From contig CAMLMI010000004.1 in the NCBI GenBank assembly GCA_946480965.1, positions 1 through 39,815 on the forward strand: 39,815 nt of DNA. Direction: 5' to 3'. The notes under the pieces were generated by a model that was given only the letters and a program-made list of their open reading frames with translations, was not told the DNA's origin and did not search any database. Position 1 is the stretch's first letter. Each line of letters begins with the position of its first letter. A program made the translations under genes and the position numbers. Below are positions 7,596-36,211 of the stretch, in pieces. The DNA comes from an uncultured Verrucomicrobiales bacterium (lineage in GTDB: Bacteria > Verrucomicrobiota > Verrucomicrobiae > Limisphaerales > CANJSG01).

Positions 7596-8026
7596 AGACC
7601 GACAACAACGACAGGCCCGCGATCCGGGGCTGGGTCGGCTACGACGGCGATTGCGGCCTTTGCGCCATGCTGGTCCGACGCTGCGCCGGGCCCTTTGAGC
7701 GACGCGGCTTTGTTTTCCTCCCGCTCCAGAATCCCTGGCTGGCCGGTCGGTTGGGCCTGAAGGACGGCGAGATGCCGGAGGAAATGAAGCTCTTGATGGC
7801 CGGCGGCCACGTTGTTGGCGGAGCTGAATCCATCGTCGTGCTGCTCGGCTCCGTAGGTTGGCTGGCTCCGCTGGCGTGGCTGGCTTGGCTGCCCGGGCTG
7901 CAACCCCTCACCGTTGCATCCTACCGCTGGGTCGCCCGGAACCGCCACGCTCTCGGCATTTGCCGAGTGCCCGAACGGCCAGCCCGCCCCCACCACGTCC
8001 ACACCGCGTTCTTCGAGGCCCCATGA
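7583..8026 (+). CDS. DCC-type thiol-disulfide oxidoreductase family protein
   Basis: 147 residues. The YDGDCGLC motif (Cys24, Cys27) with a following hydrophobic helix is diagnostic of the DUF393/DCC family, predicted thioredoxin-like redox proteins. A hydrophobic segment near 100-125 ([18 protein letters not shown]) suggests membrane association. The start is GTG with a good AAGGAG 8 bases upstream, and it lies inside operator copy 2. The stop overlaps the next ATG (8023-8026). Cofactor and substrate are unknown; context points to a lipid-related operon. Confidence 0.85.
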
Positions 8027-8898
8027 AAACCATGACGCTGCCAATAGGGCCTCTCATGCCCACGGCCCAAGCCCTCGGCAGCCTTCCTTGGTGGATCGCC
8101 ATCTCGACTCCATTCGTCGCGACCAAATGGCCGGGATGGCCGCAAATGGGACTGACAGCGGTGGCGATCTGGTTCGCCTGCAAGTGGACCCTGGTTCTGC
8201 GCCTGTCCGATCGGCTGCCACTGCGCCGCCGTTTGGGATACTGGTTGCTGTGGCCGGGCATGGACCCGAAACCGTTCGCGGCGAAGGCGCACTCCGGCAC
8301 GAGGGCGGGAATCCTTCCCGGTGCCTTGGGCGTGGTCTTGGGGGCAACTCTGATCACCATGCCGGCTCTCGCGGCTCTGCCCGAAAGACCGTTGATGGGC
8401 GGCTGGATGGGATGGGTCGGACTGATCCTGCTCCTACACTTCGGTGTATTCCACCTGTTGGCCGTCTTCTGGCAGGGCTGCGGAGTTCCAGTGCGGCCTC
8501 TGATGGAGAATCCTTGGGCTGCGCGTTCGGTGGCGGATTTCTGGGGTCGCCGCTGGAACCACGCATTCCAGGAAGTCGCCCATCGGCTTCTCTTCCGACC
8601 GACCGCGAAACGTGCCGGACCGGCGGCGGCGATGCTGCTCGTCTTCCTCGCCTCGGGCTTGGTCCATGAACTTGTCATCACCGTTCCGGCCGGAGCCGCC
8701 CATGGCGGGCCGACGCTCTACTTCATGGTCCAGGGCATCGGTTTGTTGGTCGAGCGACGCTGGAAGCTCGGTGGTGTGCTGAACCGGGTGTTTGCTTGGG
8801 GCATCGTCGCCGTCCCCGTGCCGCTGCTTTTCCCGCCGCCCTTCATCGAGAAGGTGATCGCACCGATGCTCGATGCTTTGACCGCACCCCTTCGTTGA
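8023..8898 (+). CDS. wax synthase / MBOAT-like membrane acyltransferase
   Basis: 291 residues, about seven or eight membrane segments. [20 protein letters not shown] near residue 168 and a later SGLVHE (His about 213) match the wax-synthase domain of plant-type wax ester synthases and related MBOAT_2 proteins, which join an acyl-CoA to a fatty alcohol or similar hydroxyl acceptor in the membrane. The ATG overlaps the previous stop; the upstream open frame belongs to another gene's shadow. The fold family is well supported, but the acceptor is unknown. A wax-type enzyme beside a desaturase and a Rieske oxygenase suggests synthesis of a modified neutral lipid or ester. Confidence 0.78.
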
Positions 8899-8908
8899 AT
8901 CCAATCCC

Positions 8909-9295
8909 ATGAACACCATCCTTCTCACTTACGCCGCCTATGTGGCAATCAGCGTCGCTATGACGGTCTGGGTCGCACGCACTCTCCAGCGCAACGGCCG
9001 CATCTTCCTCGTGGATGCCTTTCGCGGAAACGCGGAGATGGCCGACTCGGTCAACCACCTTCTCGTCGTGGGATTCTACCTGGTCAATCTCGGGTTCATC
9101 CTGCTCTTCCTGAAGCTGGGCGCGCATCCACAGAACACCGTGGAGGGCGTGGAGTATCTCGGCTCCAAGCTCGGTGTGGTCCTGCTCGTCCTGGGCGCGA
9201 TGCACTTCTTCAACATGTTCAACTTCCACAAAATGCGGCGAAAAGGAACCGCCCGTCCCGAGCCTCAGCCGCCCGCGCTCTTTCCCACCCGTTAG
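8909..9295 (+). CDS. small three-helix membrane protein
   Basis: 128 residues with three predicted membrane helices (about 3-23, 48-67 and 86-103) and a short Pro-rich cytoplasmic tail. The loop after helix 1 (LQRNGRIFLVDAFRGNAEMADSVNHLLVVGFYLVNLGFI) carries an Asp/His/Asn pattern that looks conserved, but I cannot name the family. The gene begins 10 bp after the acyltransferase and its stop lies in the AGGAG ribosome site of the next gene, so it is clearly operonic. Likely a membrane partner of the neighbouring enzymes. Confidence 0.78.
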   Translation: MNTILLTYAAYVAISVAMTVWVARTLQRNGRIFLVDAFRGNAEMADSVNHLLVVGFYLVNLGFILLFLKLGAHPQNTVEGVEYLGSKLGVVLLVLGAMHFFNMFNFHKMRRKGTARPEPQPPALFPTR

Positions 9296-28644: not shown

Positions 28645-29985
28645 TCACTGCGTGACAGCATTCGTAGTGTTGGTTCCGGGATGTCCGAGCTGACGCAGCG
28701 TTTCGGCCAGCTTGTTCCAATCAGCCCATTCCTCTTCCGCGCTATTAGAGTGGGCATCGGCGGCAAACAGAGCGATGCCTTGGACAAAATTCGGGTGCTG
28801 TTGCAACCACTCCTCCACTTCGGGAGCGCGATTGGTGACGCTGAAGAGCGGGAGAAGATCGGCCGCAGAAATGCCCCATCGGCTCAATCCATTCCGCAAG
28901 GCGATTGGCTCCACTTCGTTCAGCGGCGGACTGCCTCGCCACCACAACGCCAAGTGTCCGGTGGCGACCGGCAATCCTGCGCCGATGTGCTGTCTGACCC
29001 AGGCCTTGTCATCGGCGGTCAGTGCGCCTGCCAGCGGAAACAGCTCCTCGAACACAGTGGTCTCATACAGCTTCGGAGGCAGCGGGCGGGCCGGGGCAAA
29101 ATCATCGGGCTCGTGTCGGTTCAGGAAGTCGATGGCAGCGCGCATCTCTCTTTGGGCGATGTGCTGCTCGACGGCGTAGTTCAGGGATAGCTCATGCTGA
29201 ACGGGAATACAGGCGGCACTCCATCCGAGCAAAGCCACCAGCAACACAGCCCAAGGAATCCGGTCCCGCGTCAGCGATGGCCAAGATTGAACCGTCCCAC
29301 CCCAACGCCAGACCGCCAACGTCACGATCACCACAGGTATTCCCACAAGCGCCAAGTCGGACACTCTGCCCAGCGCGTTGAGCAACAGGGCTTCCTCGGG
29401 CGAGTTCCTCATTCCGCCCATGCTTCGCATGATTCTGTCGGAGAAGTTGGACAGCCCAAGGAACACCACCTCCACTCCCGCCGCCAGCAGCACCCACAAC
29501 AAGCACCGAAAGGCTGGGGCTTGGCAGACCACCTGGAAGACCCGCGCCATCAGCAGCACACGCCAGAGCGAGACGATGCCGAGCAGCCAGAGATTGGCCT
29601 TGGTGGCGGTGAGGCTGTCCCAGAACCGCTCCACCGGGATGGCGTAGATCCACGCGATGGGTGCGGTCATCCAGAAGGCTCCCATGAACCCGCGCCACGC
29701 CGACCACAGCGGAGGCTTCTTGCCGTCGGCGTAGTCCATCTTCCAACGGGCGCACAGCCCATAGCTGATGAGAAACAGCCAAGTTCCTGAGACGAGCGAG
29801 AAGAGCAACGGCCCGAGGAACCAGAGAACGGGTTTCTCCGGGATGTAGGTCTGGTCGTAGTTGCGCGGGAAGGCGGTCAATAGGACCAGCGCCATGCCGG
29901 TCCAGAACGCGGCTTTGGACGATGCGACGTTCCGGATGGCGTCTGCGCGTCCGACAAGGAAGCCGAGGAGGGTTCTGAGGTTCAT
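28645..29985 (-). CDS. multi-pass membrane protein of unknown function
   Basis: 446 residues. The N-terminal two thirds (to about 270) carry seven or eight membrane helices. After the last helix is a soluble region (about 275-446) with RHEPDDFAPARPLPPKLYETTVFEELFPLAGALTADDKAWVRQHIG, which looks alpha-helical and extracytoplasmic or cytoplasmic. No family motif recognised. It starts at an ATG next to a large inverted repeat (29993-30060) that must contain or border its promoter. Codon use is like its neighbours. Confidence 0.72.
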   Translation of the reverse strand: MNLRTLLGFLVGRADAIRNVASSKAAFWTGMALVLLTAFPRNYDQTYIPEKPVLWFLGPLLFSLVSGTWLFLISYGLCARWKMDYADGKKPPLWSAWRGFMGAFWMTAPIAWIYAIPVERFWDSLTATKANLWLLGIVSLWRVLLMARVFQVVCQAPAFRCLLWVLLAAGVEVVFLGLSNFSDRIMRSMGGMRNSPEEALLLNALGRVSDLALVGIPVVIVTLAVWRWGGTVQSWPSLTRDRIPWAVLLVALLGWSAACIPVQHELSLNYAVEQHIAQREMRAAIDFLNRHEPDDFAPARPLPPKLYETTVFEELFPLAGALTADDKAWVRQHIGAGLPVATGHLALWWRGSPPLNEVEPIALRNGLSRWGISAADLLPLFSVTNRAPEVEEWLQQHPNFVQGIALFAADAHSNSAEEEWADWNKLAETLRQLGHPGTNTTNAVTQ

Positions 29986-30064: not shown

Positions 30065-32437
30065 CTAGGAAGGTTTCACCAGCGCCAGCAGCTCGCGGTG
30101 GTTGACCTTGCCGGTGCCGAGCTTGGGGATCTCCTTCACGAACTTGATCTCCCGAGGCACGCAGAGGTTGGTCAGGCCCTTGGCTTTGATGGCGGTGCGG
30201 AGGTGGTCGAGCGTCAGCTTGGGTTCGTTGGCGATGGCGATGAGGCGTTCGCCCTTGTCTTCGTCGGGCACGGCCACGACGGCGGTTTCGCAGCGCGCGC
30301 CGAACTCGTCCTTGAACGCGCCGGCCAGCGCGTCTTCCACGGCGGTGAGGCTGACCATCTCGCCGGAGACTTTGGCGAAGCGTTTCAGGCGGCCGAGGAT
30401 GTGGACGAACTTGTCGTCGTCGATGCGGACGATGTCGCCGGTGTCATACCAGCCGCCGAGGGCCTGGAACTTGGCGTTGGCGTCGGGGTTGAGGTAGCCC
30501 TTCATCACGTTGGGGCCGCGGACGAGGAGGCGGCCGGTGGCCGACGCGGGGGAGCCGGGAGGCTGGGGCGCAGGGGAGGATTCTGACGAACTCCCTTTCT
30601 CCTCCGCTCCCTTGCTCCCCGGCTCCCCGGCTCCGACGCCCTCCACTGGCTCCACCTTCCATTCCATACCCGGGATCATGCGGCCGGCGCTGCCATGCTT
30701 CGGGGTCAACGGGGTGCAGACGGAGACGCACGGGCTGCATTCGGTCGCGCCGTAGCCTTCGAGGATGCGCACGCCGAACTTCTGCGCCCAGGTGTCGTAG
30801 GTCGTCTGCTGGACCTTCTCCGCCGCGGCGAAGAGGTAGCGCATGCTCCGGAAGTCGTAGGGATGCGCGCGGCGGGCGTAGCCGTTGAGGAAGGTGTTCG
30901 TCGCGAGCAGGACGGAGCAGTCGCGGTCGTAGAGCGCCGCCGGGACGATGCGGTAGTGGAGCGGCGAGGGATAGACGAAGCAGAACATGCCGCGCACGAG
31001 CGGGAGAAAGGTGCCGACGCTCAGGCCGAAGCTGTGGAAGAGCGGCAGGCAGTTGAACATGCGGTCGGTGTCCTGCATGTCGGTCACGGCGAGCATCTGG
31101 CGGATGTTTGCGAGCACGTTGCGGTGGGTGAGCTCGACGCCCTTGGGCACGCCTTCGGAGCCGCTGGTGAAGAGCACGACAGCGGTGAGGTCGGGCGCGA
31201 GGTTGAAGGTCATCGGCGCCATGAACCACGACCGTAGGCCGAAGAAGCTGCGGAGGAGCGCGGCCAGCTTCTGGCCTTTGCTGATGCCCTGGCGAACGTC
31301 TTCGAGGTAGAGGAACTGGATGCCGGCTTCTTCGAGCGGTTTCAGGTTCAAGCGGGCCTTCTCGACGAAGAGGCGGGAGGTGATGACCTGCTGGAGCCCG
31401 GCGAGCTGGCAGCATTGGAGCATCACCGTGGGGCCGGTGGAGAAGTTCAGCACGGCGGGCACCTTGCCGAGGCACCACGCGGCCATGACGGCGACAGGCA
31501 TTGCGTTGACGTTGGGCAGCAGGACGCCGATGCGGGGGGAATCGGATGCCGGATGCTGGATGCCGGATGCCGGATCGGCTTGGTCCATCCAACCCGGCGG
31601 CATGATCTTCGCCGGATCGCTCGCGTGAATCACCTGCGCTTTGGGGTGAGCCAGGTTGGTCTTCCAATCCGGGCAACGTTTTGAAGCGTTGGACAACGCT
31701 TCGGCCAGCACCCGCACGCCCACCAGCAGCTTGCGATAGGACAGTTCGGTCATGCTCGCGTCCTGGAGGATGGTGCGTCGGGGAAACTTCTCCGCCGTTT
31801 CCGCCACGGCTTCGGCCAGCGTTTTCGGGCCGAACTCCATCTCGATGGCGAACTGCTGTTCCACCATCTGGTCGCGCAGCCACGTGGTCAGGCGCGTGCG
31901 GGCGACGGACGTGCTGGCGTCATGGTGCTTGGGCGGCGTGAGCAGGTCGCTGAAATGCGCGGTGACCTTGGGGAACCACAGGTGTTGTTCCGAGTTGGGC
32001 GAGAAAGGCAGGCGCTGGGCGCCGCGCAGGTAGCAGGTGATGACCTTGGCGGCGGTGCGGTGGAGGAGAAATCCGGTGCCGTCGAAGAGCTTCATCAACG
32101 TGCCGGTGCGGGAGAGCCGGCCTTCGGCGAAGAGCACGAGACGGCCACCGCCATTGAGGAATTCCGCCATGCGCTTCACCGCGTAGGGCGACGCGGTGTC
32201 GATGGGGAAGGTGCGCCGGTTGATCATGATCTTCCGGTGCAGCCAGCTGGTCTGCGCGGTGGTGGACGAGGTGACGAACTTCCAGTCGTCGTCCAGCACG
32301 AGCATGAGGAAGAGCCAGTCGAGCCAGGAAACGTGGTTGGGGATGAGCAGCACGGGGCCGGGCGACTTGAGGGCGTCGAGCCGGTGCGCCTCGTAGCGGT
32401 AGAACCAACGGACGAGGAAGAGGAGGAGACGTTTCAT
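30065..32437 (-). CDS. aas: Aas-like 2-acylglycerophospholipid acyltransferase / acyl-ACP synthetase
   Basis: 790 residues, bifunctional. The N-terminal PlsC-type acyltransferase has NHVSWLD (His35-x4-Asp40) and FAEGRLS (Glu105-Gly). From about 230 there is an AMP-forming acyl-activating enzyme with VVLFTSGSEGVPKGVELTH (phosphate loop), YGATECSP, YDTGDIV, LGRLKRFAKVSGEMVSL and a C-terminal PKLGTGKVNHREL containing the catalytic Lys. This is the Aas architecture: it activates a fatty acid on ACP and re-acylates lysophospholipid at the inner membrane. A heptamer array (31545-31572) lies in a variable loop. The start overlaps the lnt stop (ATGA). The upstream frame extension to 32686 is lnt antisense-frame noise. 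Confidence 0.9.
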   Translation of the reverse strand: MKRLLLFLVRWFYRYEAHRLDALKSPGPVLLIPNHVSWLDWLFLMLVLDDDWKFVTSSTTAQTSWLHRKIMINRRTFPIDTASPYAVKRMAEFLNGGGRLVLFAEGRLSRTGTLMKLFDGTGFLLHRTAAKVITCYLRGAQRLPFSPNSEQHLWFPKVTAHFSDLLTPPKHHDASTSVARTRLTTWLRDQMVEQQFAIEMEFGPKTLAEAVAETAEKFPRRTILQDASMTELSYRKLLVGVRVLAEALSNASKRCPDWKTNLAHPKAQVIHASDPAKIMPPGWMDQADPASGIQHPASDSPRIGVLLPNVNAMPVAVMAAWCLGKVPAVLNFSTGPTVMLQCCQLAGLQQVITSRLFVEKARLNLKPLEEAGIQFLYLEDVRQGISKGQKLAALLRSFFGLRSWFMAPMTFNLAPDLTAVVLFTSGSEGVPKGVELTHRNVLANIRQMLAVTDMQDTDRMFNCLPLFHSFGLSVGTFLPLVRGMFCFVYPSPLHYRIVPAALYDRDCSVLLATNTFLNGYARRAHPYDFRSMRYLFAAAEKVQQTTYDTWAQKFGVRILEGYGATECSPCVSVCTPLTPKHGSAGRMIPGMEWKVEPVEGVGAGEPGSKGAEEKGSSSESSPAPQPPGSPASATGRLLVRGPNVMKGYLNPDANAKFQALGGWYDTGDIVRIDDDKFVHILGRLKRFAKVSGEMVSLTAVEDALAGAFKDEFGARCETAVVAVPDEDKGERLIAIANEPKLTLDHLRTAIKAKGLTNLCVPREIKFVKEIPKLGTGKVNHRELLALVKPS
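31545..31572 (+). repeat. GATGCCG heptamer x4 inside aas
   Basis: Four units, the second with one change (GATGCTG). In mRNA sense it is CGGCATC, the same orientation as in pabB, and encodes PASGIQHPAS in the aas-like protein between the acyltransferase and the adenylation core. Confidence 0.94.
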
Positions 32438-33867
32438 GATGCGGAGAGTGGCTTGGACAGAAGCGCGCCCGTATCGGGCTTTGGTCGGAGCGGACGAAAA
32501 ATTCCGACGACGAACAGCAGAAGCGTTCCGCCCAAACAACCGCGCACCAGCCAACGGTCGGGCGGCAAGGAGCCGGGTTGGTCCAGCGTGAGCGTGCCGG
32601 CGAAGATCGCGCCTTGGGCGTCGAAGGGGAGCGAGTGTTCGACGGTGCCGTTGCGGGCGACGATCTGGGATTCTCCGGAGCTGCACACGCGGACGACGGG
32701 CAGGCCGTATTCGGCGGCGCGGATCGGACCGAGACGGGCGTGGGTCGCGTGCTGGGCTTCACCCCATTCGACCATATCCATCGTGGGGATGATCAGCGCC
32801 TGGGCGCCTTGGCGGACGAGTTCGTCGATGATCCGCGAGTAGCTGAAGTCGTAGCAAACGGCCAAGCCGATCTTGCCCCACGGAGAATTCCAGAGCTGCT
32901 GCGAGGGTGCGGGCTTGCCGTCCTGGAAGAACTGGATGGGCTGCTTCTTGGCCTGCTGGAAGACGATCTCGCCGTCGGGCGAAATGACGAAGACGGTGTT
33001 GTAGAAGGTTCGGTCGGGTTGGTGGTCCTTGCCGCCGACGATCAAGTGGCGGCGGTGCTGGCGGCACCAATCGAGCACGGCTTTCGGCGGGGCGTCGTCG
33101 AGGGTGTATTCGCTGAGGACGATGAGTTCGGTCTGCGGGTGCTGGGCGACGATGCGGTCGAGGGTTTCCAGCACCGCGTGTTGGCTGGGGAATTCCAGTT
33201 GCGCGCCGGCGAGGTGGAGGGTTTTGGCGGCGGAGGCGGTGAACCCAATCAGCAAGAGGACCAGACTAGCGGTCGCGCGGGCGGTGGCTTCAAGGGACGG
33301 TAGCGACGTTGAGAGGGTCGTGGGTTCAAATCTCCGGATACCGGGCAACACCCAAGCCGTCACCGCCAACAACGTCGCCACGAAGCCGATGCCATATCCA
33401 CCCAAGGCCGCAAGCACTCCCGGCCATTGGTCGAAGGCCATGCCGGGCGTGAACCAGGCGAAGCGCAGCCAGTAGAGTTCGCTGCGGAAAAACTCCAGAG
33501 CGGTCCAGAGAACGGGTGCGACCGCGATCAGCCCGACGCGGTTGAGTTGGAGACGAAGTCGCAGCCAGCGCAGACCGGCGGAGAAGAATCCAAGCCATAT
33601 CGCCAACACCAGCCAGAGCGCGACGGCTCCGAAGCCGAAGATCGTCCAGAAGAACTCCAGCTTGGGCGCGTAGCAGAGCAGCCCGAGGATCACCGCCGGA
33701 TAGAAGGCCATGCGCCAGCGCGGCAATCGGGCGAGCCCGATCAGCGCGAAGGGAAGCAGGACAACCATCCACGCCAACGCAGCGGAGGCGAAAGCGAGGT
33801 GGAAGCCCAGAGTGCCTGTTCCAACCAGGGTGAGGATACGCCACCACGGCCAAGGTGGGGCATGCAT
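32434..33867 (-). CDS. lnt: apolipoprotein N-acyltransferase-like protein
   Basis: 477 residues from MHAPPW. About seven membrane helices occupy 1-212, followed by a periplasmic nitrilase-type domain with the catalytic triad candidates Glu253 (SEYTL), Lys307/308 (AKKQP) and Cys338 (VCYDFSY), the Lnt set. The motifs around the triad diverge from proteobacterial Lnt (no GEY after the Lys), so I call it Lnt-like. It would N-acylate the lipoprotein Cys using the sn-1 chain of a phospholipid and leave lysophospholipid. The frame is open to 33993, but that stretch is inside an inverted repeat (33850-33950) which also supplies this ATG, so the true start is uncertain. Its stop overlaps the aas start. 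Confidence 0.83.
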   Translation of the reverse strand: MHAPPWPWWRILTLVGTGTLGFHLAFASAALAWMVVLLPFALIGLARLPRWRMAFYPAVILGLLCYAPKLEFFWTIFGFGAVALWLVLAIWLGFFSAGLRWLRLRLQLNRVGLIAVAPVLWTALEFFRSELYWLRFAWFTPGMAFDQWPGVLAALGGYGIGFVATLLAVTAWVLPGIRRFEPTTLSTSLPSLEATARATASLVLLLIGFTASAAKTLHLAGAQLEFPSQHAVLETLDRIVAQHPQTELIVLSEYTLDDAPPKAVLDWCRQHRRHLIVGGKDHQPDRTFYNTVFVISPDGEIVFQQAKKQPIQFFQDGKPAPSQQLWNSPWGKIGLAVCYDFSYSRIIDELVRQGAQALIIPTMDMVEWGEAQHATHARLGPIRAAEYGLPVVRVCSSGESQIVARNGTVEHSLPFDAQGAIFAGTLTLDQPGSLPPDRWLVRGCLGGTLLLFVVGIFRPLRPKPDTGALLSKPLSAS

Positions 33868-33950
33868 CTTGCCGGTCCCTTTTTGAAAATCGGAGCCCAT
33901 CGGAATGCACGGCGCGTCTTGGAGCAGGCTGGGTGCTCGCCCCACCTTGG
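33850..33950. repeat. large inverted repeat spanning the lnt start
   Basis: Perfect 12-bp arms CCAAGGTGGGGC (33850-33861) and GCCCCACCTTGG (33939-33950), 77 bp apart. The lnt ATG (33865-33867) lies just inside the element, and the left arm encodes the next residues. An AAAAAGGGAC purine stretch before the ATG also belongs to it. Another frame translates to RDRQDACPT, a peptide typical of repeat-derived spurious ORFs. Confidence 0.85.
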
Positions 33951-34024
33951 GGACTTCGGCAATTCCGGCCATTGGATCTGCGGATGCTTTCACGGCTTCC
34001 TTTCCGGCGGCCGCGTGGGTCGCC

Positions 34025-35311
34025 TTACGCCTGTTTGGGCGCGGGATTCTGGGTGGTGAGCTTCATTCCGAGAGTGAGTATGACCACGACCACGGCGAGG
34101 CCGAGGAAGGCGTGGTGGGCGGAGAAACCGACCTTGGTCATCACGCCGAGCAGCCCCGCGCCGACCAACATGCCGGCGTAGTCCACGACGTTCTGCACGG
34201 CGATGGTTTTTCCGAGCGCGGTCGGGTCGGTCTCGTGCTGGAGCGCGGCGTTCAGCGGGACGATGAGCAAGCCCGCCATGATTCCCGCCAAGGCCAGCGC
34301 CGGGACGATGATCCAGAAGCCCGCGCTGCCCGGCAGCAGGCCCAGCAGGGTGATGCCGACGGCCATGCCGAGCGCGTAGAGCCATTGCTTGGAGAGATCT
34401 CCGATGCCGTGGAGCCGTCCGGCCAGCAGGCTGCCGGAGACGATGCCGAGCACTAGTCCGACCTTGAGCAGCGCGAGGCGATCATTGGTGATCTTCTCGG
34501 GAGGCATCCCGGCTTCTTCGAAGATGGTGAGCCCCCAGGCGTGGAGGTTGGTCCGCATGAACGCGCCGGCCATCCAGAAGAGACCGCAACCAAGCAGCAC
34601 GCGGCCGATTCGGCGGCTGCCGACAAGCGCGCCCAAGTGGTGGAAGAAGGCCTGGACGCTGTCGCCGAGCCGCGCCGAGGCGTTGCAGGGCGTGCGGTCC
34701 ATGCAGCCGTTGAGCACCGCGGCGAGGACGTAGCAGAGCGCGGACGCGCCGTAGCAAACCATGAGCGCACGCTCATGGCCGTAGAAGGCGCGGCTCTTGT
34801 CGTAGAGCACCGCCCCGCCCGCGAGACCGCCGAGAATGGCGACGAGCGTGAGCATCTCCACGGTGCCGTTGGCCTTCACCAGCTTCTCGGCGGGCAGCAC
34901 TTCGGGCAGCGCGCCGTATTTGGCGGGCGAATAGAGGCAGGCACCGATGCCGACGATGGCGTAGCCCACGGCCTGCCACAACATGGCCTGGTCGTGGTTG
35001 GCGGCATGGAGCTGAACGCCGATGAAACCGGCGAAGACACCCAGCAGCTTCACGAGATTGCCGCCGAGCAGCCACGTGGTCTTGGGCATCCGGTCGTTCA
35101 GAAACCCGGCGAGCGGCGCGAGGAGGATGAACGGGATGAAAAAAACGACGCTGAAGAGGGTGTTCGTACCGTTGACCTGCTGTTCTCCGATGGTTCCGGC
35201 ATTCTTCAGGAAGGTCAACGGGGCCAGGATGCCAGCCAGCAGCAGATTGTCGCCGAAGGCTCCGAGGAACTGGCCGGTAAGCAGCAGCGGATAGTTTTTC
35301 GCGGATTTCAT
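34025..35311 (-). CDS. lplT: LplT-like lysophospholipid transporter (MFS)
   Basis: 428 residues, about twelve membrane helices. The N-terminal LLTGQFLGAFGDNLLLAGILAPL contains the 'Q.LGAFGDN' signature of LplT-type MFS proteins, and LLGGNLVKLLGVFAGF and YSPAKYGALPEVLPAEKLVKANG fit the same family. LplT moves lysophospholipid from the outer to the inner leaflet of the inner membrane, where Aas re-acylates it; in Enterobacteria the two are adjacent or fused. Here lnt sits between lplT and aas. It starts 15 bp after the MarR gene stop, and a 157-bp repeat-bearing gap follows it. An alternative is a generic MFS exporter, but the operon context argues for LplT. Confidence 0.85.
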   Translation of the reverse strand: MKSAKNYPLLLTGQFLGAFGDNLLLAGILAPLTFLKNAGTIGEQQVNGTNTLFSVVFFIPFILLAPLAGFLNDRMPKTTWLLGGNLVKLLGVFAGFIGVQLHAANHDQAMLWQAVGYAIVGIGACLYSPAKYGALPEVLPAEKLVKANGTVEMLTLVAILGGLAGGAVLYDKSRAFYGHERALMVCYGASALCYVLAAVLNGCMDRTPCNASARLGDSVQAFFHHLGALVGSRRIGRVLLGCGLFWMAGAFMRTNLHAWGLTIFEEAGMPPEKITNDRLALLKVGLVLGIVSGSLLAGRLHGIGDLSKQWLYALGMAVGITLLGLLPGSAGFWIIVPALALAGIMAGLLIVPLNAALQHETDPTALGKTIAVQNVVDYAGMLVGAGLLGVMTKVGFSAHHAFLGLAVVVVILTLGMKLTTQNPAPKQA

Positions 35312-35326
35312 GGTGCAGGCCCGGGA

Positions 35327-35788
35327 TCAGAGGGTTTCGGCAAAGGCGGCGACGTTCTGGTCGAGCTTTTCCAGTCCGGCGACGAAGGAAGCGGTGCTGC
35401 GGCCGCTGAAGCCGGCCCAGACCGATTCGGCGGCCTGGTAGTAACCGGGGAGGATCTCGGCCAGCAGCCGGCGGCCGGCGGCGGTCAGGACCACGCGATG
35501 GGCGCGGCGGTCCTCGGGATTGTCCTTCCGGGAGACGAGCCCGCGCTCCTCCAGGCGGTCGATCAGGCCGGTGACGTTGGAGCGGTGCATGATGAGCACG
35601 CGGCTGAGCTCCACCTGCGTGGTGCCACCGGGGTGGTCGCGCAGGACGTTGAGGACGTTGAACTGGCTGGGGCTGATGTCCCAGCGGGCGAAGAACTGGC
35701 GGGAGACGTTCCAGATGGTCTCCGAGGTGCGGAGCAGCTGGAGGAGTGCGCCGTAGTGCGGGCCGGGCTTGGGCTTGGTCGTGCTCAC
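35327..35788 (-). CDS. MarR-family transcriptional regulator
   Basis: 153 residues, GTG start. Winged helix with ISPSQFNVLNVLRDHPGGTTQVELSRVLIMHRSNVTGLIDRLEERGLVSRKDNPEDRRAHRVVLTAAG, a textbook MarR core including the wing 'DRRAHRV', with helices at both ends for dimerisation. It heads the lplT-lnt-aas operon (15-bp gap) and has a palindromic operator 23 bp upstream that overlaps its -35 box. Expected to repress itself and the lysophospholipid-recycling genes until a lipophilic or phenolic ligand binds; the ligand is unknown. Confidence 0.92.
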   Translation of the reverse strand: MSTTKPKPGPHYGALLQLLRTSETIWNVSRQFFARWDISPSQFNVLNVLRDHPGGTTQVELSRVLIMHRSNVTGLIDRLEERGLVSRKDNPEDRRAHRVVLTAAGRRLLAEILPGYYQAAESVWAGFSGRSTASFVAGLEKLDQNVAAFAETL

Positions 35789-36115: not shown

Positions 36116-36211
36116 ATGGCAAAGAAAGCAGCTGTTAAGAAGAAGGCCGCGAAGAAAGCGGTGAAGAAAGTAGCCAAGAAGGTGGCCAAGAAGAAGGCCG
36201 CCAAGAAGTAA
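36116..36211 (+). CDS. 31-residue Lys/Ala histone-tail-like protein
   Basis: Only 31 residues: 16 Lys, 10 Ala, 4 Val and the initiator Met, in KKA/KKV repeats (MAKKAAVKKKAAKKAVKK...). It resembles the isolated C-terminal tail of histone-H1-like or AlgP/Hc2-type proteins and should bind DNA or RNA by charge. A GGGTGAG ribosome-site-like sequence lies about 5 bases upstream, and a strong terminator follows 14 bp after the stop, so it looks like an independent, well-bounded gene rather than chance. Codons alternate AAG/AAA and GCC/GCG/GCA/GCT, as in a translated gene. Confidence 0.75.
   Translation: MAKKAAVKKKAAKKAVKKVAKKVAKKKAAKK

Follow-up and report, generated by a model that had tools for sequence, protein, structure and literature searches.

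Why should a relative of the apolipoprotein N-acyltransferase Lnt stand between an LplT-like transporter gene and an aas-like gene, behind a gene for a MarR-family regulator? Lnt, LplT and Aas are usually connected via their chemistry rather than by gene order. In a 39,815-nucleotide stretch of a contig of an uncultured Verrucomicrobiales bacterium (CAMLMI010000004.1; the whole stretch is called the window here), marR, lplT-like, lnt-like and aas-like genes follow one another on the minus strand at positions 30065-35788. A first-pass annotation of the window had described the block as marR-lplT-lnt-aas, and the coordinates bear out its order and its single strand, with the label lnt giving way to lnt-like. 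We propose, with moderate confidence, that the block is a lysophospholipid-repair operon (marR, transporter and aas) switched by its MarR protein, into which a second, diverged enzyme of the Lnt family has been recruited.

The Lnt-like protein and the housekeeping Lnt

We asked whether genomes that carry the lnt-like gene also carry a canonical Lnt. A genome scan with the single sequence gave one locus, L001, in a Verrucomicrobia metagenome-assembled genome (MAG) whose canonical Lnt (286.5 bits) lies on a different contig. Later genome searches used an alignment profile in place of the single sequence. Among 387 genomes drawn from the phylum, 18 matched at 1e-10: seven strongly (>470 bits, the L001 MAG included), eight as a distant group (183-235 bits) and three weakly, and canonical Lnt was above its cut-off in all 15 strong and distant-group genomes. 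In the order to which the L001 MAG belongs, the lnt-like gene was found in 97 of 245 genomes (1e-30) and canonical Lnt in 221 (1e-35). A hand cross of the two hit lists placed canonical Lnt in 90 of the 97 genomes with the lnt-like gene and in 131 of the 148 without it (p 0.38); of the remaining seven carriers, five show canonical Lnt as pieces, in broken frames or cut by a contig end, and two (G432, G550) have none. Two explanations were rejected on these counts: that the housekeeping Lnt had been relocated beside lplT-aas, because canonical Lnt is also present, and that the lnt-like gene replaces canonical Lnt, because the latter is about as frequent with it as without it.

Judged by sequence comparison, the gene is a Lnt-like paralogue, separate from the housekeeping Lnt. 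In a quick maximum-likelihood tree, E. coli Lnt and 18 verrucomicrobial canonical Lnts split from the Lnt-like proteins with an SH-aLRT (Shimodaira-Hasegawa-like approximate likelihood ratio test) support of 100. The 119 rows of this tree were the window and 85 of the 97 loci (those matching fewer than 380 profile positions were dropped), 14 further carriers, 18 of the 45 canonical Lnts, and E. coli Lnt, which sits on a long branch; the rooting serves display only. The earlier identification of the gene as the lipoprotein N-acyltransferase Lnt is not supported: canonical Lnt lies elsewhere, the protein falls below the family cut-off, and residues reported as necessary for acyl transfer to the lipoprotein are missing.

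Could it nevertheless be another apolipoprotein N-acyltransferase, one that serves certain lipoproteins or conditions as an isoenzyme and hands its by-product to lplT-aas? We consider this unlikely, though the predicted folds resemble each other from end to end. A search of PDB sequences returned soluble nitrilases only; a fold search with the predicted model, which has eight long membrane helices, instead returned Lnt, with membrane part and nitrilase domain matched over the whole length. The Glu-Lys-Cys triad of nitrilases, E295 (33111-33109), K349 (32949-32947) and C380 (32856-32854), is invariant across 98 aligned rows and aligns with E267, K335 and C387 of E. coli Lnt. R170 and W180 of the membrane part are also invariant, and the Arg139/Trp148 columns and Tyr388 of Lnt are conserved in the family. 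The Lnt equivalog model TIGR00546 matched all 30 members scanned, and LNT_N was detected in 19 of them. None of the 30, however, reached the curated cut-off of 132.9 bits (60.6-132.7 bits, the highest only 0.2 bits short; window protein 80.1), although three genes of the distant group exceeded it once same-frame pieces were summed (G294, 160.7; G218, 147.2; G160, 147.1).

The missing Trp237 loop and a shortened stretch ahead of the catalytic Cys argue further against an isoenzyme, as do the presence of canonical Lnt and the position on the opposite side of the tree. Among the differences from Lnt of E. coli and P. aeruginosa, identity to E. coli K-12 Lnt is 21.5% over 390 columns. Trp237 of Lnt, reported as necessary for acyl transfer to the lipoprotein (PMC6971011, in excerpt), falls in a loop deleted from the Lnt-like proteins; its column and that of Glu343 are empty in all 15 family rows and all 14 outer rows, whereas canonical rows have Trp in 35 of 45 and Glu in 45 of 45, respectively. 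Between the 343 region and the catalytic Cys, the window protein has about 22 fewer residues than Lnt. Glu389 is replaced by Asp in the family, the arm is shorter, and the Trp415 column is without Trp, with an invariant Trp410 nearby. An invariant Asp358 lies nine residues past the Lys, where the canonical Glu lies eight past it, and from the alignment Asp358 could stand in for Glu343 through a one-residue shift.

It is likewise improbable that the protein is a hydrolase, that is, a membrane-anchored nitrilase-family enzyme that frees fatty acid from a phospholipid or an N-acyl compound, with Aas and the transporter salvaging the products. The missing acceptor-side elements of Lnt would fit such an enzyme, as would the close superposition of the nitrilase domain on several amidases (root mean square deviation 2.0-2.3, 205-220 residues) and the acyl-ACP (acyl carrier protein) synthetase half of Aas, which activates free fatty acid too. 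But the eight-helix membrane part, R170 and W180 are all kept, although an amidase of the soluble type would have no use for them, and no residue indicates water as the acceptor.

AatD, another relative of Lnt, transfers an acyl chain to the N-terminal glycine of CexE/Aap (PMC7943197, in excerpt). Like the Lnt-like protein it retains the triad, and it has a dedicated acceptor. AatD keeps Glu343 (as E286) and is part of a secretion system, whereas the Lnt-like protein has no Glu343 in the usual position and has lysophospholipid-repair genes as neighbours.

Gene order around the lnt-like gene

The L001 locus carries the identical four genes in identical order between different flanking genes. 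We excised all 97 loci and annotated them by profile; open reading frames were called mechanically, hidden Markov model thresholds were chosen by us, and frameshifted or contig-end genes are undercounted. One of these loci, L142, falls in a more distant group in the tree. The aas gene lies directly 3' of the lnt-like gene in 57 of the 84 loci that extend 700 bases or more beyond it; at L152 it is 621 bases away, beyond our limit of 600, and is outside the 57. Among the 77 loci with both flanks, the order was marR-lplT-lntlike-aas in 14, lplT-lntlike-aas in 9, marR-lntlike-aas in 17, lntlike-aas in 7 and marR-lntlike in 2, and 6 had a spinster-like transporter where lplT would otherwise stand. 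L132 was counted as lacking lplT and marR, though both lie upstream. The 4-base overlap of lnt-like and aas that the first-pass annotation had seen in the window, where ATGA (32437-32434) is common to the stop of one and the start of the other, is real, and recurs at 24 of the 57 measured junctions, window included, where start codons were assigned by projecting the profile onto each locus. Because the block is kept with differing flanks, because aas follows so often and because the overlap recurs, its arrangement is more than chance.

The survey of lnt neighbours that had been suggested for this phylum also covered canonical lnt: 45 such loci with about 1.5 kb of flank had no marR, lplT, spinster or aas above 80 bits. 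We also inspected 40 aas loci, hand-picked as the best-scoring listed rows among genomes without the lnt-like gene. These had marR-lplT-aas in 9, lplT-aas in 5, marR-aas in 4, spinster-aas in 2 and marR-spinster-aas in 1. Since the repair operon is found both with and without the lnt-like gene, this gene was probably recruited into an operon that already existed. Our full-text literature searches, which left most subscription journals outside their scope, gave no description of a Lnt paralogue beside lplT-aas.

Some loci depart from these orders. L127 and L132 have two tandem lplT-like genes after marR, upstream of the lnt-like gene. At L170 a CobD/HisC-like aminotransferase (7937-9076, plus strand) lies between marR and the lnt-like gene, in the usual position of the transporter. 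At L144 (2734-6252, plus) a frame of 1172 amino acids fuses LplT and Aas parts; the lnt-like gene, which is broken, lies about 3 kb away. At L145 (412-3507, minus) one in-frame open reading frame holds the end of the lnt-like gene and the whole of Aas. A true fusion of this kind would be strong evidence of joint work; we set it aside as a likely assembly fault, since the contig measures 3.5 kb and the middle of the lnt-like part is missing.

Table 1. Features of the block in the window (aa, amino acids)
Feature	Positions	Strand	Remarks
Promoter/operator	35828-35797	minus	palindrome TAGTTGACGTATCAACTA with -35/-10-like boxes, ahead of marR
marR, MarR-family regulator, 153 aa	35788-35327	minus	GTG start; PF12802 4.3e-17, PF01047 2.1e-15
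lplT-like, MFS transporter, 428 aa	35311-34025	minus	ATG start; best named model NF008397 LplT
lnt-like, up to 519 aa, LNT_N-like membrane part and CN_hydrolase	33993-32434	minus	GTG start
aas-like, 790 aa, PlsC acyltransferase and AMP-binding acyl-ACP synthetase	32437-30065	minus	ATG start

The operator and the transporter

The gene products matched Pfam and NCBIfam families as follows: MarR, with its winged-helix domain; MFS, with LplT the best named; CN_hydrolase, with Lnt the best named; and PlsC plus AMP-binding. The start codon of the lnt-like gene has AAAGGAAG just upstream, and later starts are possible. The first-pass annotation had placed a clear operator ahead of marR, and this stands up: the palindrome (35828-35811), about 55 bases ahead of the start of the MarR domain, is a perfect 7-base inverted repeat with arms TAGTTGA and TCAACTA around CGTA. 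It overlaps a -35-like TTGACG (35825-35820), which is followed by a 17-base spacer and a -10-like TAAACA (35802-35797) 8 bases 5' of the GTG of marR. A match with at most 4 mismatches to the window's arms was found in 54 of 60 marR upstream regions, window included, compared with 56 of 2000 segments of 250 bases drawn at random from these loci. The remaining 6 of the 60 had 5-6 mismatches, and an intact TTGA...TCAA core was present in only 26. The consensus, ATTGTTGACATATCAACAAT, includes a TTGACA -35 box. In a raw count made without a random comparison, 44 of the 60 had a TTGACA-like -35 and, at a spacing of exactly 17 bases, a -10 starting in TA. For 35 of the 44, the -10-like box comes 6-8 bases ahead of a start-like codon, so that marR mRNA probably has little or no leader. 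Searched genome-wide at one mismatch, the operator occurred in 13 of 20 genomes, each time as a single site, at this marR; the other 7 had no site at that stringency. The operator is also present at L108 and L134, two loci in which the lnt-like gene comes after marR but is not followed by aas (at L134 a run of N comes after the lnt-like gene).

The lplT-like protein shares 29% identity with E. coli LplT over 410 columns (E 1.2e-26), with the stretches AFGDN, YSPAKYG and KLVKANG in common. By sequence the homology is sound, as the first-pass annotation had it, while its score of 204.9 bits to NF008397 stays under that model's cut-off of 297. The aas-like protein is 34% identical to E. coli K-12 Aas over 772 columns (E 5.6e-145), with the PlsC domain and its HX4D motif (NHxxxxD) preceding the AMP-binding domain, and scores 519.7 bits to NF005959 (Aas), under the cut-off of 886. 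Both proteins are thus homologous to those of the LplT-Aas system of E. coli (PMC11416262, in excerpt) and are likewise encoded in one operon. In E. coli the order is aas-lplT with lnt elsewhere, in agreement with the earlier note's comparison, whereas in the window lplT comes first, MarR and operator stand ahead and the lnt-like gene lies between.

At other loci a spinster-type transporter can, from these comparisons, take the lplT place. The proteins in that place at L158, L152 and L089 had SPNS1/SPNS2 as the best solved-structure match (E 1e-37 to 1e-46); the other three of the six spinster loci were called by a profile built from four of these genes. SPNS1 is an exporter of lysophosphatidylcholine, which is then re-esterified (PMC10115416, in excerpt), and the bacterial spinster-like proteins may have a lysolipid substrate as well.

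Two further reading frames lie close to the block. A membrane-like protein of 446 amino acids (28645-29985, minus) without a Pfam or NCBIfam match is encoded 79 bases 3' of aas on the same strand and could be a fifth operon gene; among the annotated neighbourhood loci it had a relative above 60 bits at L094 only. On the plus strand, 36116-36211 encodes a lysine/alanine-rich peptide of 31 amino acids (MAKKAAVKKKAAKKAVKK...) with a histone H1-like composition.

A possible pathway and its meaning

From fold, triad and neighbours we infer how the operon might work. The MarR protein would bind the operator over the -35 box and repress the operon until a membrane-derived ligand released it. The Lnt-like enzyme would then act as a dedicated acyltransferase, taking an acyl chain from a phospholipid and passing it to an acceptor, most likely a dedicated protein or a small amine. 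The residual lysophospholipid would be flipped inward by the LplT-like transporter, elsewhere by the spinster-like one, and re-acylated by Aas. More tentatively, the branch of the Lnt family for which we found no description may be a phospholipid-dependent acyltransferase with a new acceptor, a single-target MarR switch and its own lysophospholipid-repair pair.

Several results weigh against this proposal. Glu343, to which a part in the first half-reaction of Lnt is assigned (PMC6971011, in excerpt), is not at its usual spacing in the Lnt-like protein. None of the neighbours accompanies the lnt-like gene in 22 of the 77 two-flank loci, nor at any of the 14 further carriers from the phylum draw, and the 17 marR-lntlike-aas operons have no transporter. 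LplT was not found at 1e-20 in 16 of 18 tested genomes without lplT beside the lnt-like gene. The 51 loci without marR had no operator within 3 mismatches; together with the 22 lone loci, this means that the lnt-like gene can work without the operon. A strong aas (E <1e-85, a cut chosen by us) was only mildly more frequent alongside the lnt-like gene, at 78 of the 97 genomes with it vs 101 of the 148 without it (Fisher p 0.04; hand count over 245 genomes), and 19 of the 40 aas loci had neither marR nor transporter called, some of them at contig ends. No conserved small substrate gene was seen by eye in the neighbour lists, which were not searched systematically. The lone loci and the weak co-occurrence with aas would suit a passenger, inherited from one old insertion and doing work unrelated to lysophospholipid, but this is very unlikely, given that the gene is retained across many branches, often with the 4-base overlap, and in the spinster-bearing variant, and is kept with marR but without aas at L108 and perhaps L134.

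Of the tie between production and repair of a by-product that the first-pass annotation drew, the link of a Lnt-fold enzyme to lysophospholipid repair survives, while the by-product of Lnt itself is not supported as its basis. An enzyme of this fold is bound to lysophospholipid repair in many genomes of one order and is nevertheless separate from the housekeeping Lnt. If our reading is true, Verrucomicrobiota have genetically coupled the drawing of acyl chains from phospholipid to the repair of what is left of it. The exchange of LplT for a spinster-type protein gives independent, indirect support to the idea that bacterial transporters of that type can move lysophospholipid. Many of the Lnt-like proteins are annotated as 'apolipoprotein N-acyltransferase' in a source, and that annotation may be wrong. 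On this proposal, phospholipid acyl chains should have a second use outside the cytoplasm, and the arrangement offers a natural way to ask whether one particular acyltransferase has a repair system at its service.
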